Shown: positions 58,563-64,000, counted from the first letter of the stretch. The stretch: 64,000 bases of DNA from a virus (IMGVR_UViG_3300020204_000066:1-64000); one strand, 5' to 3'. Program-made: numbers and translations. The notes: generated from the letters alone by a model not told the origin.

Positions 58563-58979
58563 TTACTTGGTTCTCTCCAGGAAGAACTTTAACTGCCCAT
58601 TAGGATCACCAGTTTTGTTAACGGTGTCTAATGATGAAATTTCATATAAAATCTCAATTTCATACCCATTACCATCAAAATCAGGATAGATCGTTATTTT
58701 ATGCACGCTCACCCTAGGTTCATAGAGATTAATCGTATCTTCAATTTCACGCTCCATCAAAGATGCAGTAATATAATCAACAGGTTCAAAAAGTAATGAA
58801 CGAATACTGCATCCAAATTTTGAATTAAAGAAACGTTCTCCACGTTGAGTTAATATAAGATTATATAGTGCCCTTTGAACTGCAGTCTCATTCGTAACTG
58901 TAAGAAGATCCTCAGTTACTGGATGAGGTTCAAAGGACACCCCTAGATCTTTAACTAACGTTTTAGTTTTCTTGGGCAT
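58563..58979 (-). CDS. gp25: gp25 baseplate wedge protein
   Basis: gp25 is the small wedge protein that nucleates the sheath (gp25/anti-adaptor lysozyme-like fold). The 138 residues match T4 gp25 (132). The signature stretch ALYNLILTQRGERFFNSKFG with CSIRSLLFEP is present near 34-68, followed by the IEDTINLYEPRVSV stretch. It is the first gene of the gp25-gp6-gp7 unit and has a CATAAATA late box 17 nt upstream. Confidence 0.95.
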   Translation of the reverse strand: MPKKTKTLVKDLGVSFEPHPVTEDLLTVTNETAVQRALYNLILTQRGERFFNSKFGCSIRSLLFEPVDYITASLMEREIEDTINLYEPRVSVHKITIYPDFDGNGYEIEILYEISSLDTVNKTGDPNGQLKFFLERTK

Positions 58980-61467: not shown

Positions 61468-61633
61468 CTGGCGAAAAATTTTTTTATTTGAAGTGTTATC
61501 GCACTCGCGTTTTCAAAGTTTTGTAGGTTAATAGTATCTATCAATTTTCCTTTCGCTCGGCCGCCCCCGTCGCACGGCGGTCGCATCGTTGGACTGCCCC
61601 CCGAGGGCTACTGCCCCCGAGGGTGTGCTAGGA
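61468..61633. other. Gene-free junction with sharp base-composition change
   Basis: No gene is seen here. Up to about 61555 the sequence is AT-rich like the virion genes; from about 61556 it is GC-rich and stays so to the right end. Two near-identical copies of a tgcccccgaggg-type unit (61595-61610 and 61612-61629) lie in the GC-rich half. Confidence 0.7.
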
Positions 61634-61651
61634 TGGGGGGTCAGTCCCCCA
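61634..61651 (-). terminator. GC-rich hairpin at the end of the acidic protein gene
   Basis: A stem of six Watson-Crick pairs and one G-T pair (GGGGG against CCCCC) overlaps the stop codon at 61641. There is no T tract, so its role as a terminator is tentative. Confidence 0.45.
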
Positions 61652-61835
61652 GAACCCAGGTCGCCAGTTCGCCTGCGTCGAGGCGCTCATTCATCAGTGC
61701 CCACCACGGGGAGTCGATGAAGGCGTCGAGCAAACCCTGGTGGTGGATGAAGCGGAGACCCTCCAACCAGGAGACGGTGCCATCCCACTCAGCAGAGGCG
61801 AGGAAGTCATCCCACAGGGTCACGTCGTTGGTCAT
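61641..61835 (-). CDS. Small acidic tryptophan-rich protein
   Basis: This 64-residue protein has about twelve acidic and only two arginine residues and five tryptophans (TLWDDFLASAEWDGTVSW near the N-terminus, SPWWAL in the middle). The predicted charge is strongly negative. I do not recognise it. It is preceded by a TAGACT promoter element 26 nt upstream and followed by a hairpin, so it forms a complete one-gene cassette. Confidence 0.65.
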   Translation of the reverse strand: MTNDVTLWDDFLASAEWDGTVSWLEGLRFIHHQGLLDAFIDSPWWALMNERLDAGELATWVLGD

Positions 61836-61855
61836 CGGTCGGTGTCGGTTGAACT

Positions 61856-61871
61856 GTGGTTAGTCTAGAGG
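61856..61871 (-). promoter_or_regulatory. Cassette promoter element 1
   Basis: The minus strand reads CCTCTAGACTAACCAC, with a -10-like TAGACT at 61862-61867, 26 nt before the start codon at 61835. It matches the elements before the other genes of this region. Confidence 0.6.
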
Positions 61872-61880
61872 CGATCCGCC

Positions 61881-62045
61881 TCAGTGGCGGTCGCTGATGT
61901 GCCAGTTGGTGATGGGGGCAGGCACAGGGCGGATGCCTTGGCGGATCTCCTGGCGGATCTGCTCCTCGCGGATCACCTTGGCGGTGTAGTCTGCCATCAC
62001 GGTGGCGAGCAGTTGTTCGTGGGTCATCTTGGTTTGGTTGTTCAT
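61881..62045 (-). CDS. Small helical protein with apparently leaderless mRNA
   Basis: This 54-residue protein starts MNNQTKMTHEQLLATVMADY and continues with a charged helix (VIREEQIRQEIRQ) before a proline-rich end (PVPAPITNWHIS). No family recognised. The TAGACT box is only 6 nt before the ATG, which places the predicted transcription start at or next to the start codon. The in-frame ATG at codon 7 is an alternative start that would restore a short leader. Confidence 0.65.
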   Translation of the reverse strand: MNNQTKMTHEQLLATVMADYTAKVIREEQIRQEIRQGIRPVPAPITNWHISDRH

Positions 62046-62050
62046 GCTGT

Positions 62051-62065
62051 CAGTCTACAGGGTCA
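62051..62065 (-). promoter_or_regulatory. Cassette promoter element 2 (overlaps upstream stop codon)
   Basis: The minus strand reads TGACCCTGTAGACTG. TAGACT is at 62052-62057, and the TGA at its left end is the stop codon of the upstream signal-peptide gene. Confidence 0.6.
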
Positions 62066-62239
62066 GGGCATCTCGCAGGCGCCAGGGAGGACACTGTTGT
62101 AGGTGGCACAGCGGCGCTCGGTGGCGGCGTTCACGCTCTGCACGGTGTCAGCGGCGAAGGTCACAGCGGCGCTGCCTGCTGCCATGATCGGACCGTAGAA
62201 GGCGGCACCGAGGACGAGGAGGGCGATGGTCTTGAACAT
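62063..62239 (-). CDS. Small exported protein
   Basis: The 58-residue product has a signal peptide-like N-terminus (MFKTIALLVLGAAFYGPIMA, hydrophobic to about residue 30). Its mature part has two cysteines (RRCATYNSVLPGACEMP) that could form a disulphide. It would be exported across the inner membrane. No family recognised. A cassette promoter lies 27 nt upstream. Confidence 0.65.
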   Translation of the reverse strand: MFKTIALLVLGAAFYGPIMAAGSAAVTFAADTVQSVNAATERRCATYNSVLPGACEMP

Positions 62240-62260
62240 TGGTCGGGTCGTTTGGTTGAT

Positions 62261-62279
62261 GTGGTTAGTCTACAGGGTC
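62261..62279 (-). promoter_or_regulatory. Cassette promoter element 3
   Basis: The minus strand reads GACCCTGTAGACTAACCAC with TAGACT at 62267-62272, 27 nt before the start at 62239. Confidence 0.65.
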
Positions 62280-62302
62280 GATCGGTCGATCTGGGGTCAG
62301 AG

Positions 62303-62316
62303 GGGGACAGTTCCCC
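62303..62316 (-). terminator. GC-rich hairpin after the nuclease gene
   Basis: GGGGA pairs with TCCCC around a four-base loop shortly after the nuclease stop codon. It has no T tract. Confidence 0.4.
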
Positions 62317-62325
62317 AGGTGTCCC

Positions 62326-62889
62326 TCACAGTCCTTTCTCTTCAAGAATAGGGGCGACAACCTCACGAAGGAAGGTAAAGTATTCGTCAGATGTGAAGGG
62401 GGTCTCGATGATAGTGAGCAGGTCATTCACGCCCCACACGTTCATGCCTTTGTTGGCGTACTTTGTCTGTTCTTTGTTGCTTACTGTAGCGACGACAGGC
62501 ACAAAGTAGGCGGCGGTGATGTTGCCTCCGATAGTCTCAGCGATGGCGTTGATCTTATCATTACTGGCACGGATCTTCTCGCTGTCGAAGTTCAGATTGC
62601 ACTTGCTCTCCAGGTAATAGTTCTGGGCGTTAATCTCAAACAAGTGATCGATTTGGCGCTGACGATCGTTAACGTCGAGCATGTTGGATTCTTCGATCAG
62701 GTTGGTGGCGTTGCTGTCGCTGATCACTTGATTCCAGAACCGCTCGATACGCTCACCGAAGGCAATGAGAATAGATTGAGGCGAGACACGATCAGCAAGA
62801 CCGAGCGCCTCTAGGATGTGAGATTCAGTCTGCTTCGGTTCGATCGAGAGGATCAGGGGCAGCAGGTTGGTTTCCAGGTAAGCAGTCAT
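62326..62889 (-). CDS. Probable PD-(D/E)XK nuclease (restriction-endonuclease-like)
   Basis: The 187-residue protein has a helical N-terminal half. It then has QIDHLFEINAQNYYLESKCN, which fits the D-x(12)-E-x-K active site of PD-(D/E)XK nucleases (D81, E94, K96), with hydrophobic strands around each residue. The length and layout resemble type II restriction endonucleases. No methyltransferase is visible in the window. Possible roles are host DNA breakdown, attack on competing phages or recombination; none is shown. Its base composition is closer to average than the surrounding cassettes. It has its own promoter element 22 nt upstream. Confidence 0.72.
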   Translation of the reverse strand: MTAYLETNLLPLILSIEPKQTESHILEALGLADRVSPQSILIAFGERIERFWNQVISDSNATNLIEESNMLDVNDRQRQIDHLFEINAQNYYLESKCNLNFDSEKIRASNDKINAIAETIGGNITAAYFVPVVATVSNKEQTKYANKGMNVWGVNDLLTIIETPFTSDEYFTFLREVVAPILEEKGL

Positions 62890-62905
62890 TGGGTTGTTTG
62901 TTGAT

Positions 62906-62925
62906 GTGGTTAGTCTACAGGGTCA
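62906..62925 (-). promoter_or_regulatory. Cassette promoter element 4 (overlaps upstream stop codon)
   Basis: The minus strand reads TGACCCTGTAGACTAACCAC, with TAGACT at 62912-62917. The TGA is the stop codon of the upstream gene. Confidence 0.68.
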
Positions 62926-63156
62926 GCGAGGCAGAAGCGGGCGATCAGGGGACACTTGCTTAGGTGTCACATCCTGCACCCGAACCTGCTCTACGAAATG
63001 GTAGGACGGTTGGCGGCGTCGTCTTGCCATCTTGGCGATAGTACGGACAGCGCGAACGGTGCCGATCGGATTTGATGCCAGGGCACCTGCTGCCGACATG
63101 GCAGCGGTCATGGTGCCACAGACGGCGATGATGACCAGCGAACCTAGAATGACCAT
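62923..63156 (-). CDS. Small membrane-anchored protein
   Basis: This 77-residue protein starts MVILGSLVIIAVCGTMTAAM, one hydrophobic stretch of about 28 residues. A basic segment (KMARRRRQP) and a proline-ending tail (VSPDRPLLPR) follow. It looks like a single-pass membrane protein with a cytoplasmic basic tail. The start shares one base with the stop of the 52-residue gene (TGATG), so the two form the only pair in this array. No family recognised. Confidence 0.65.
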   Translation of the reverse strand: MVILGSLVIIAVCGTMTAAMSAAGALASNPIGTVRAVRTIAKMARRRRQPSYHFVEQVRVQDVTPKQVSPDRPLLPR

Positions 63157-63314
63157 CAGGCGAACTGGGCGAGGGAGGAGGGGGCGATGTGAGCGGGCGA
63201 TCCACAGGAGCGGTAGAAGTCCACCATCCGCTCTGCCTCAGCGAGCGTGGGGAACCACTGCGAGCGCCACTCCTGGTGGTTGTAGGGGGTCTGGTAACGG
63301 ACTTCGATTCGCAT
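63156..63314 (-). CDS. Small hypothetical protein (52 residues)
   Basis: The product starts MRIEVRYQTPYNHQEWRSQW with FPTLAEAERMVDFYRSCG next, a beta-beta-alpha pattern. No family recognised. It is coupled to the following membrane-protein gene and has its own promoter element 22 nt upstream. Its AEAERMVD segment is loosely like the AEAQRLLA of the 58-residue protein at 63685, so the two may be distant paralogues. Confidence 0.62.
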   Translation of the reverse strand: MRIEVRYQTPYNHQEWRSQWFPTLAEAERMVDFYRSCGSPAHIAPSSLAQFA

Positions 63315-63330
63315 CGGGTTGTTTGCTGAT

Positions 63331-63349
63331 GTGGTTAGTCTAGAGGGTC
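63331..63349 (-). promoter_or_regulatory. Cassette promoter element 5
   Basis: The minus strand reads GACCCTCTAGACTAACCAC with TAGACT at 63337-63342, 22 nt before the start at 63314. Confidence 0.65.
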
Positions 63350-63352
63350 TGG

Positions 63353-63370
63353 GGGGGCAACGCTGCCCCC
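63353..63370 (-). terminator. GC-rich hairpin before element 5
   Basis: GGGGGCA pairs with TGCCCCC around a four-base loop, shortly after the stop codon of the DUF7249-like gene. There is no T tract. Confidence 0.55.
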
Positions 63371-63381
63371 GCTGTGCCAGT

Positions 63382-63603
63382 TCAGAAATCGGTCAGCATG
63401 TCATCCAGTTCGTCGGTGTCGATCTTAGCGTCCATCCAACGGGCGCCGTCTGGGGTCATCTGCCCCCACAGCATCTCCAGGTGGGGAATCAGTGCGTTGT
63501 AGCGGTTGAACCGCTGAGCGAGGTTGTAGGTCGTCTCGTCATTCTGAATCCAGAGGGCGACGTTCCAGGTCTCCCAGTTTGCCCATCCGTTGAAGGTGGT
63601 CAT
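63382..63603 (-). CDS. DUF7249-like small protein
   Basis: The 73-residue product starts MTTFNGWANWETWNVALWIQ followed by NDE. I associate this motif with DUF7249, a small family spread across phages and some bacteria, function unknown. The acidic C-terminus (DTDELDDMLTDF) is helical. I chose the ATG at 63603 because the family begins just before WANWETWNV and a CATACT box lies 27 nt upstream; a longer frame upstream has no support. Confidence 0.78.
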   Translation of the reverse strand: MTTFNGWANWETWNVALWIQNDETTYNLAQRFNRYNALIPHLEMLWGQMTPDGARWMDAKIDTDELDDMLTDF

Positions 63604-63624
63604 GGTTCGGTTCGTTTGGTTGAT

Positions 63625-63640
63625 GGGTTTAGTATGGCAC
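63625..63640 (-). promoter_or_regulatory. Cassette promoter element 6 (diverged)
   Basis: The minus strand reads GTGCCATACTAAACCC, with CATACT at 63631-63636 in place of TAGACT. The following leader (CATCAACCAAACGA) matches that of element 3. Confidence 0.5.
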
Positions 63641-63659
63641 CCCTTGGCGGGGTTTGGGG

Positions 63660-63684
63660 CAGTTGGTGGACAGTGCCTCAACTG
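63660..63684 (-). terminator. Inverted repeat after the 58-residue gene
   Basis: CAGTTG and CAACTG face each other with a 13-base loop directly after the stop codon. The stem is short and lacks a T tract, so termination is uncertain. Confidence 0.35.
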
Positions 63685-63861
63685 TCACAGGATCTGCAGG
63701 TCGTCCAGGATCTTGCCATCGCGGCGGATCTGAGCGTAGACGAACTCGTCTGCCTTGATGGCGAGCAGGCGCTGCGCCTCTGCCCAGGTATCAGCAGACA
63801 TGGACTCCCAGGGGTCAGAGGGGACGAAGACGGTGAAGCGGCGTTGGTTGAGGTTGTTCAT
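63685..63861 (-). CDS. Small hypothetical protein with apparently leaderless mRNA
   Basis: The 58-residue product starts MNNLNQRRFTVFVPSDPWES and continues TWAEAQRLLAIKADEFVYAQ, a strand-helix-strand pattern. No family recognised. The TAGAAT box lies only 6 nt before the ATG, exactly as for the gene at 61881-62045, so its mRNA may begin at the start codon. Confidence 0.62.
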   Translation of the reverse strand: MNNLNQRRFTVFVPSDPWESMSADTWAEAQRLLAIKADEFVYAQIRRDGKILDDLQIL

Positions 63862-63865
63862 GCTG

Positions 63866-63881
63866 TAATTCTACAGGGTCA
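63866..63881 (-). promoter_or_regulatory. Cassette promoter element 7
   Basis: The minus strand reads TGACCCTGTAGAATTA with TAGAAT at 63868-63873, 6 nt before the start codon at 63861. Confidence 0.62.
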
Positions 63882-63885
63882 GGAT

Positions 63886-63902
63886 GGGGTCTGTGTGACC
63901 CC
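63886..63902 (-). terminator. GC-rich hairpin before element 7
   Basis: GGGGTC pairs with GACCCC around a five-base loop, between the stop of the partial gene at 63916 and element 7. There is no T tract. Confidence 0.5.
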
Positions 63903-63915
63903 TTGTGCCAGTGCC

Positions 63916-64000
63916 TCAGGTGGTCTCGTGGTAGGCGTCGCTGACTTTTTCCTGTACACTGTCGAAGACCTTTTGATCCATCCAATCGGGGCAGTCCTCA
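63916..64000 (-). CDS. C-terminal end of a gene cut by the right edge
   Basis: The last 27 codons read EDCPDWMDQKVFDSVQEKVS and end DAYHETT before TGA. Only the tail is visible and it is not recognised. Its position before hairpin and element 7 suggests it is one more cassette. Confidence 0.5.
   Translation of the reverse strand, partial: EDCPDWMDQKVFDSVQEKVSDAYHETT

Follow-up and report, generated by a model that had tools for sequence, protein, structure and literature searches.

Small-gene cassettes upstream of gp25 in a T4-type cyanophage: probable self-contained promoters with a putative palindrome-bound dimeric protein in place of a -35 box

Promoter early stem-loop (PeSL) cassettes, reportedly described by Arbiol et al. 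in 2010 and by Comeau et al. in 2014, are the closest known kind to the locus studied here, an array of small minus-strand genes with promoter-like elements at 61640-64228 of the virus record IMGVR_UViG_3300020204_000066 from IMG/VR. The record has 64,228 bp, and the 64,000-nt stretch that was analysed, hereafter the window, covers most of it. PeSL cassettes are described in parts of PMC4503421 as a repeated early-type promoter and a stem-loop between small genes, tied to gene-content shuffling in T4-type phages, and the array resembles them in the repeated promoter and in the shuffling, and may do so in the stem-loop. The control of the first genes in T4-type cyanophages, which are among the commonest marine viruses, is a standing question. 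According to parts of PMC2984593, these phages lack the Alt, ModA/B, MotA, and AsiA proteins of T4. In a search for promoters of cyanophages, Sullivan et al. (2010) applied models for sigma-70, T4 late, Pho, and NtcA and did not look for a new motif.

Judged from its sequence, the window comes from a T4-type cyanophage of the Kyanoviridae and covers part of its genome. Its minus-strand genes are collinear with those of S-PM2, with 47% identity for gp6, 42% for gp25, and 42% for the gene just before them. The gp25 baseplate wedge homologue (58563-58979, minus strand) is the landmark downstream of the array, and runs of small hypothetical genes also lie upstream of gp25 in S-PM2, S-CAM3, Syn1, S-SKS1, and S-RSM4. 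In the array, eight promoter-like elements serve nine genes, counting an eighth element past the window end, and their -10 elements lie within 2.5 kb on the minus strand.

We consider it likely that these units are self-contained promoter cassettes in which a dimeric protein bound to a palindrome stands in for the -35 box. The proposed order is a 24-bp palindrome, often a guanine- and cytosine (GC)-rich hairpin, a -10 box, a CA start 7 nt further on, and a leader or none. The dimeric protein would bind the palindrome, probably supply the missing -35 contact, and recruit host RNA polymerase. The transcript would either be leaderless or begin with an A/C-rich leader of 14-23 nt that lacks a Shine-Dalgarno sequence. 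This geometry of palindrome and -10 box is common to Kyanoviridae, also ahead of some single genes such as cobS. The repeated units would render small genes independent and interchangeable, so that exchange among phages reshuffles these genes at the hotspot next to gp25, on its upstream side.

Palindrome, -10 element, and start site

When the units were aligned, two conserved boxes were seen far upstream of the -10 element. They form a 24-bp palindrome, missed in the original prediction, with a consensus of about TGTGACAGTT-N4-AACTGTCACA; each of the eight -10 boxes has a copy that starts 53-54 bp upstream of it. The refined motif was present in 92 of 104 non-redundant units, and it is independent evidence because the units had been retrieved with a string that did not include it. 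Half-site spacing was 16 in 27 of 29 clear cases, and the pair shifted jointly by 1-3 bp relative to the -10 box. Paired columns showed no covariation across the dyad. Since the halves do not covary, the palindrome would act as a DNA site of a dimeric protein, and its reading as an RNA hairpin was ruled out.

All copies are on the minus strand. Those of elements 1, 3, 4, 5, and 7 start 54 bp upstream of the -10 box, at 61898-61921 (the weakest copy), 62303-62326 (AGGGACACCTGGGGAACTGTCCCC), 62948-62971 (TGTGACACCTAAGCAAGTGTCCCC), 63373-63396 (CTGACCGATTTCTGAACTGGCACA), and 63904-63927 (GAGACCACCTGAGGCACTGGCACA), respectively. The copies of elements 2 and 6 start 53 bp upstream, at 62087-62110 (TGTGCCACCTACAACAGTGTCCTC) and 63666-63689 (TGTGACAGTTGAGGCACTGTCCAC); the latter scored 22 and is one of three strong copies in the window. 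The palindrome of element 8 lies beyond the window end, at 64160-64137.

The original prediction had placed seven minus-strand elements near 61862, 62052, 62267, 62912, 63337, 63631, and 63868. All seven exist, and each of these positions is the last base of a -10 hexamer. The hexamer is TAGACT in elements 1 to 5 (61862-61867, 62052-62057, 62267-62272, 62912-62917, and 63337-63342), the -10-like CATACT in element 6 (63631-63636), and TAGAAT in element 7 (63868-63873). An eighth -10 box was found at 64107-64102, in the short part of the record that extends past the window. Allowing at most three mismatches, GACCCTGTAGACTAACC gave five matches in 64 kb against 0.09 expected. All were inside the array, so that the random scatter through the genome named as a possible refutation was not seen in the 64-kb fragment. 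Those at 61862 and 63631 have diverged further than the other elements. In 13 longer related contigs the matches clustered on a single strand within one stretch of 1-3 kb (49, against 1 in the reversed control), and an exact 17-mer of it occurred in 30 viral contigs, with a looser form at 78 loci. The overlap of the upstream stop codon with elements 2 and 4 is real, but it had been placed one base off: the last two bases of the TGA are also the first two (GA) of the element.

By comparison with related units, TAGACT is a -10 box of the sigma-70 type, because these units carry TATAAT, TAGGAT, or TATTGT in its place. TATAAT or TAGGAT was found at this position in paralogous S-PM2 units with a similar leader, and TATTGT and TACAAT in units of S-CAM3 and Syn1. 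With a hexamer near TATAAT and a conserved start purine about 7 nt downstream, the units look like sigma-70 promoters in this part, and the promoter identity proposed in the original prediction is well supported. The -35 box, which had been reported as missing, was indeed not found: at least five of six matches to TTGACA at 16-18 bp occurred in 1 of 104 array-type units against 0.6 expected, and this lack of enrichment ruled out a hidden -35 in these units. TG directly precedes the -10 box in 85 of 104 units; an extended -10 alone was rejected, as the palindrome is equally regular. Among the readers suggested in the original prediction, a phage factor is thus the better option, given the palindrome at a fixed upstream distance, and a bare extended -10 is insufficient. 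Early timing is suggested by position and promoter type.

The GC-rich hairpins claimed for several gaps are present, as read from the sequence, on the minus strand. One of them, GAGGCGGATCGCCTC, stands directly before the -10 box of element 1 (61868-61882). The hairpins GGGGGCAGCGTTGCCCCC (63353-63370), CCCCGCCAAGGGG (63640-63652), and GGGGTCACACAGACCCC (63886-63902) lie between the palindrome and the -10 box of elements 5, 6, and 7, respectively.

Transcription likely starts at a conserved CA, whose A is the seventh base past the -10 box. In 76 promoters from eight Kyanoviridae, selected for a palindrome with a -10 box at the proper spacing, irrespective of the start base, the base 7 nt after the -10 box was A in 64% and G in 30%, giving 94% purine. 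The predicted starts of elements 1, 3, 4, 5, and 6 are 61855, 62260, 62905, 63330, and 63624, with leaders of 20, 21, 16, 16, and 21 nt before the ATG at 61835, 62239, 62889, 63314, and 63603, respectively. For elements 2 and 7 the predicted start (62045 and 63861) is the A of the ATG itself.

The shared leader noted in the window was also found in the units. Counted from the predicted start, leaders in the 104 non-redundant units had 0 nt (15 units) or 14-23 nt (85 units), with almost none between. The leaders contained 48% A and 34% C, and a Shine-Dalgarno-like string occurred in 2 of 85. The leaderless state is a trait of gene families: it was found in 10 of 11 members of family F10, 7 of 8 of F13, and 7 of 7 of F16, against 0 of 44 of F1 and 0 of 22 of F3, with F0 mixed (32 of 78). 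None of 2000 permutations gave clustering as strong, where copies from related contigs are not independent. Some genes may thus be translated without a leader, although certain calls, such as 62045 with an ATG at 62027, are followed within a few codons by another ATG in frame; no alternative ATG lies near 63861.

Distribution among phages and alternative explanations

A scan of nine other Kyanoviridae gave 97 palindromes; strong -10 boxes lay 52-55 bp from them in 72 cases, and other offsets had 0-5 each. For phages outside the training set, a -10 box stood at this offset in 15 of 16 cases in P-SSM2, 12 of 18 in S-CRM01, and 3 of 7 in Syn9 (30 of 41 together). S-PM2 has 24 palindrome sites above a score of 14, and its shuffled sequence has none. 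The S-PM2 sites with a -10 box precede array genes, cobS, and other non-structural genes, and the block of structural genes (about 27 to 88 kb) has none. Counts of the pattern against the reversed control were 38/5 in Syn9, 26/2 in P-SSM2, 24/4 in P-SSM4, 43/2 in S-CRM01, and 31/2 in S-PM2. The pattern was not enriched in T4 (5/2), P-SSP7 (2/2), Syn5 (1/3), and Ma-LMM01 (2/6), and the count in S-B43 (17/14) was indistinct from its control. S-PM2 also has a palindrome upstream of psbA (135161-135326); it accompanies a canonical TTGACG-17-TATAAT promoter, from which it is separated by more than the usual distance.

A wider proposal is that Kyanoviridae encode or deliver a dedicated dimeric factor, that the palindrome marks a family-wide class of non-structural promoters replacing Alt/Mod and MotA/AsiA, and that some of the genes are leaderless. 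We offer it tentatively, with somewhat more doubt than confidence.

The palindrome could instead be the site of a host transcription factor exploited by the phages, the remainder being a host-type promoter. Palindromes were found in phages of both Prochlorococcus and Synechococcus, as such a factor would allow, and T4-type cyanophages do draw on regulators of the host: some promoters of S-PM2 are bound by PhoB (PMC10976474), and NtcA sites have been predicted in T4-type cyanophages (PMC3037559). The palindrome matches neither the NtcA consensus GTA-N8-TAC (PMC3037559) nor the Pho box consensus (PMC10976474), and T7-like cyanophages that infect the same genera were found to lack it. In half of the WH7803 host genome (1.2 Mb), 16.7 sites per Mb scored above 12 against 27.5 in shuffled sequence, with no -10 box at the offset, so that a host factor with many native sites was not seen there. 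A CRP-type site has the half-site TGTGA with a spacing of 6; the half-site fits the palindrome, but the spacing here is 14. A looser pattern in eight host genomes gave about 1.7 times the control, a search that is too unspecific. A host regulator with few native sites is compatible with these data, in which one host alone was scanned in detail. On balance, a host factor seems unlikely, though it is the strongest of the alternatives.

Less probable still is that palindrome and hairpins are 3'-end RNA terminators of the upstream gene with an ordinary sigma-70 promoter behind them, which would make the units plain PeSLs. Stems of at least 5 bp between palindrome and -10 box are enriched (35 of 104 units against 9 expected), and some S-PM2 hairpins have T-runs and resemble intrinsic terminators. 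This second hairpin could well serve as a terminator, but T-runs are rare in this array, and TTT was present in only 8 of 104 units. One palindrome copy, upstream of cobS in S-CRM01 (125862-125891), is annotated as a Rho-independent terminator in its GenBank record. For the palindrome itself, the missing covariation and the fixed distance to the -10 box do not fit a terminator, two window copies (elements 2 and 4) lie within upstream coding sequence, and the last array gene has no palindrome after it.

That the unit is mainly a recombination site, for a site-specific recombinase or for homologous recombination, with promoter activity secondary, is very improbable: the many gene orders and the high similarity of the units would suit it, but the same geometry stands ahead of single S-PM2 genes, cobS among them, conservation of the -10 boxes and of the start purine is that of promoters, and homologous exchange via the units can be a by-product.

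Several results weigh against a palindrome-bound activator in place of the -35 box. The conservation of GACCCTG is owed in part to the use of that string as query, and the palindrome of element 1 has a weak score (8.3). A -35-like hexamer (at least four of six) was found in 28 of 76 other Kyanoviridae promoters against 6.8 expected, and the palindrome is therefore not always a -35 replacement. The palindrome was matched to no phage or host protein, and no obvious DNA-binding regulator turned up when ten conserved proteins of S-PM2 were scanned with Pfam. A phage-encoded protein would also have to come in the virion, unless the earliest promoters work without it. Even so, activation by a palindrome-binding protein, possibly of phage origin, appears to us the most probable explanation. 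A literature search found no description of the palindrome, which leaves room for an earlier report and is not proof of novelty, and a search with the motif letters returned unrelated papers only.

Cassette genes, shuffling, and base composition

The genes of the array are all on the minus strand. Element 1 precedes a 64-amino-acid (aa) gene of phrog_25802 with no assigned function (61641-61835), and element 2 a 54-aa gene of F0, the largest cassette family (phrog_14769, 61881-62045). The 58-aa gene behind element 3 (62063-62239) belongs to family F4, which is followed by eight different families elsewhere. Behind element 4 is a 187-aa gene (phrog_26553, 62326-62889) with a predicted PD-(D/E)XK nuclease fold. 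The 52-aa gene behind element 5 (63156-63314, family F8) is followed by a 77-aa gene (62923-63156) with no element of its own, whose start lies in a TGATG overlap with the preceding gene. Elements 6 and 7 precede a 73-aa gene (63382-63603; DUF7249, PF23907, phrog_871) and a 58-aa gene of F13 (63685-63861). The gene behind element 8 is cut by the window end (63879-64000, with its start at 64077).

The 187-aa protein is likely a PD-(D/E)XK nuclease, as its model suggests. Residues D81, E94, and K96 are invariant, the structure model has a predicted local distance difference test (pLDDT) value of 91, and the best PDB matches were Can2/Card1, Bax1, and EcoO109I-type nucleases, with low TM-scores. 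Viral contigs hold 54 loci related to it, and S-CAM8 and S-WAM2 have homologues. The host-takeover or anti-defence roles suggested in the original prediction would be conjectural: known families are rare among the cassettes, the exceptions being DUF7249, this predicted nuclease, and a HicA-like family in relatives. The latter (F18, PF07927) was leaderless in 5 of 6 cases and hints that the pool includes cargo related to toxin-antitoxin systems.

The 450 genes behind units fall into 83 families with many orders and neighbours, and one family is followed by 12 others. The cassettes are thus exchangeable, as had been suggested, and the units are much more alike than the genes between them.

Averaged over the cassettes, GC content at third codon positions (GC3) was 0.67, compared with 0.34 in long genes from the same contigs, and it was higher in 64 of 64 contigs. 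In the window, genes directly behind elements had GC3 of 0.65-0.85, against 0.27-0.36 for neighbouring genes. The stretch 61540-64000 is a composition island, with GC of 55-59% and GC3 mostly 0.8 next to neighbours with about 35% GC and GC3 of 0.3. Its edge, after the last cassette, is a GC-rich stretch at 61560-61640 with repeated CCCCGAGGG and without the palindrome. The Prochlorococcus phage P-SSM2 had no such island in the stretch read, and the composition, host-like in its high GC3, may therefore follow the host or a host-linked gene pool.

Comparison with known systems

If the proposed cassettes are correct, each small orphan gene would bring its own switch, which would explain their free exchange. 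The palindrome would give a genome-wide promoter list and a route to genes overlooked by annotation, and its strict geometry ahead of dozens of genes in Prochlorococcus and Synechococcus phages could serve as bait for the missing regulator.

T4 middle promoters consist of a MotA box and a -10 box with a poor or missing -35. The array units may be analogous to them, with an upstream box that is possibly phage-linked, but the box sequence, its palindromic form, and its distance all differ. Cyanophages are described in parts of PMC2984593 as without motA and asi homologues. The sigma-70-type early promoters predicted for S-PM2 and Syn9, which are reviewed there, share the host-type -10 box and start spacing with the array units, whereas the latter show no -35 enrichment, and these parts of the paper do not mention a palindromic upstream site. 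Integron-type cassettes, which are promoterless and have attC sites, do not fit, as every unit has its own -10 element.

The 'ORFanage' of S-PM2 and the variable region upstream of gp25 have the same position, many small one-strand orphan genes, homologous units, and a GC island. The window array differs in its gene set, and that part of the S-PM2 ORFanage which was deleted is located further upstream. Puxty et al. (2015) judged the PeSLs of S-PM2 to be too thinly spread to account for the deleted ORFanage, whereas the stretch adjoining gp25 there is dense in units of the present kind. PeSL cassettes remain the closest comparison, since a promoter is repeated between small genes, with eight -10 elements each before a gene, and gene families occur in many orders across contigs. 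Compared with the PeSLs described in parts of PMC4503421, the units found here are distinguished by a 24-bp palindrome at a fixed upstream distance, a -10 box without a -35, and leaders that are A/C-rich or absent.

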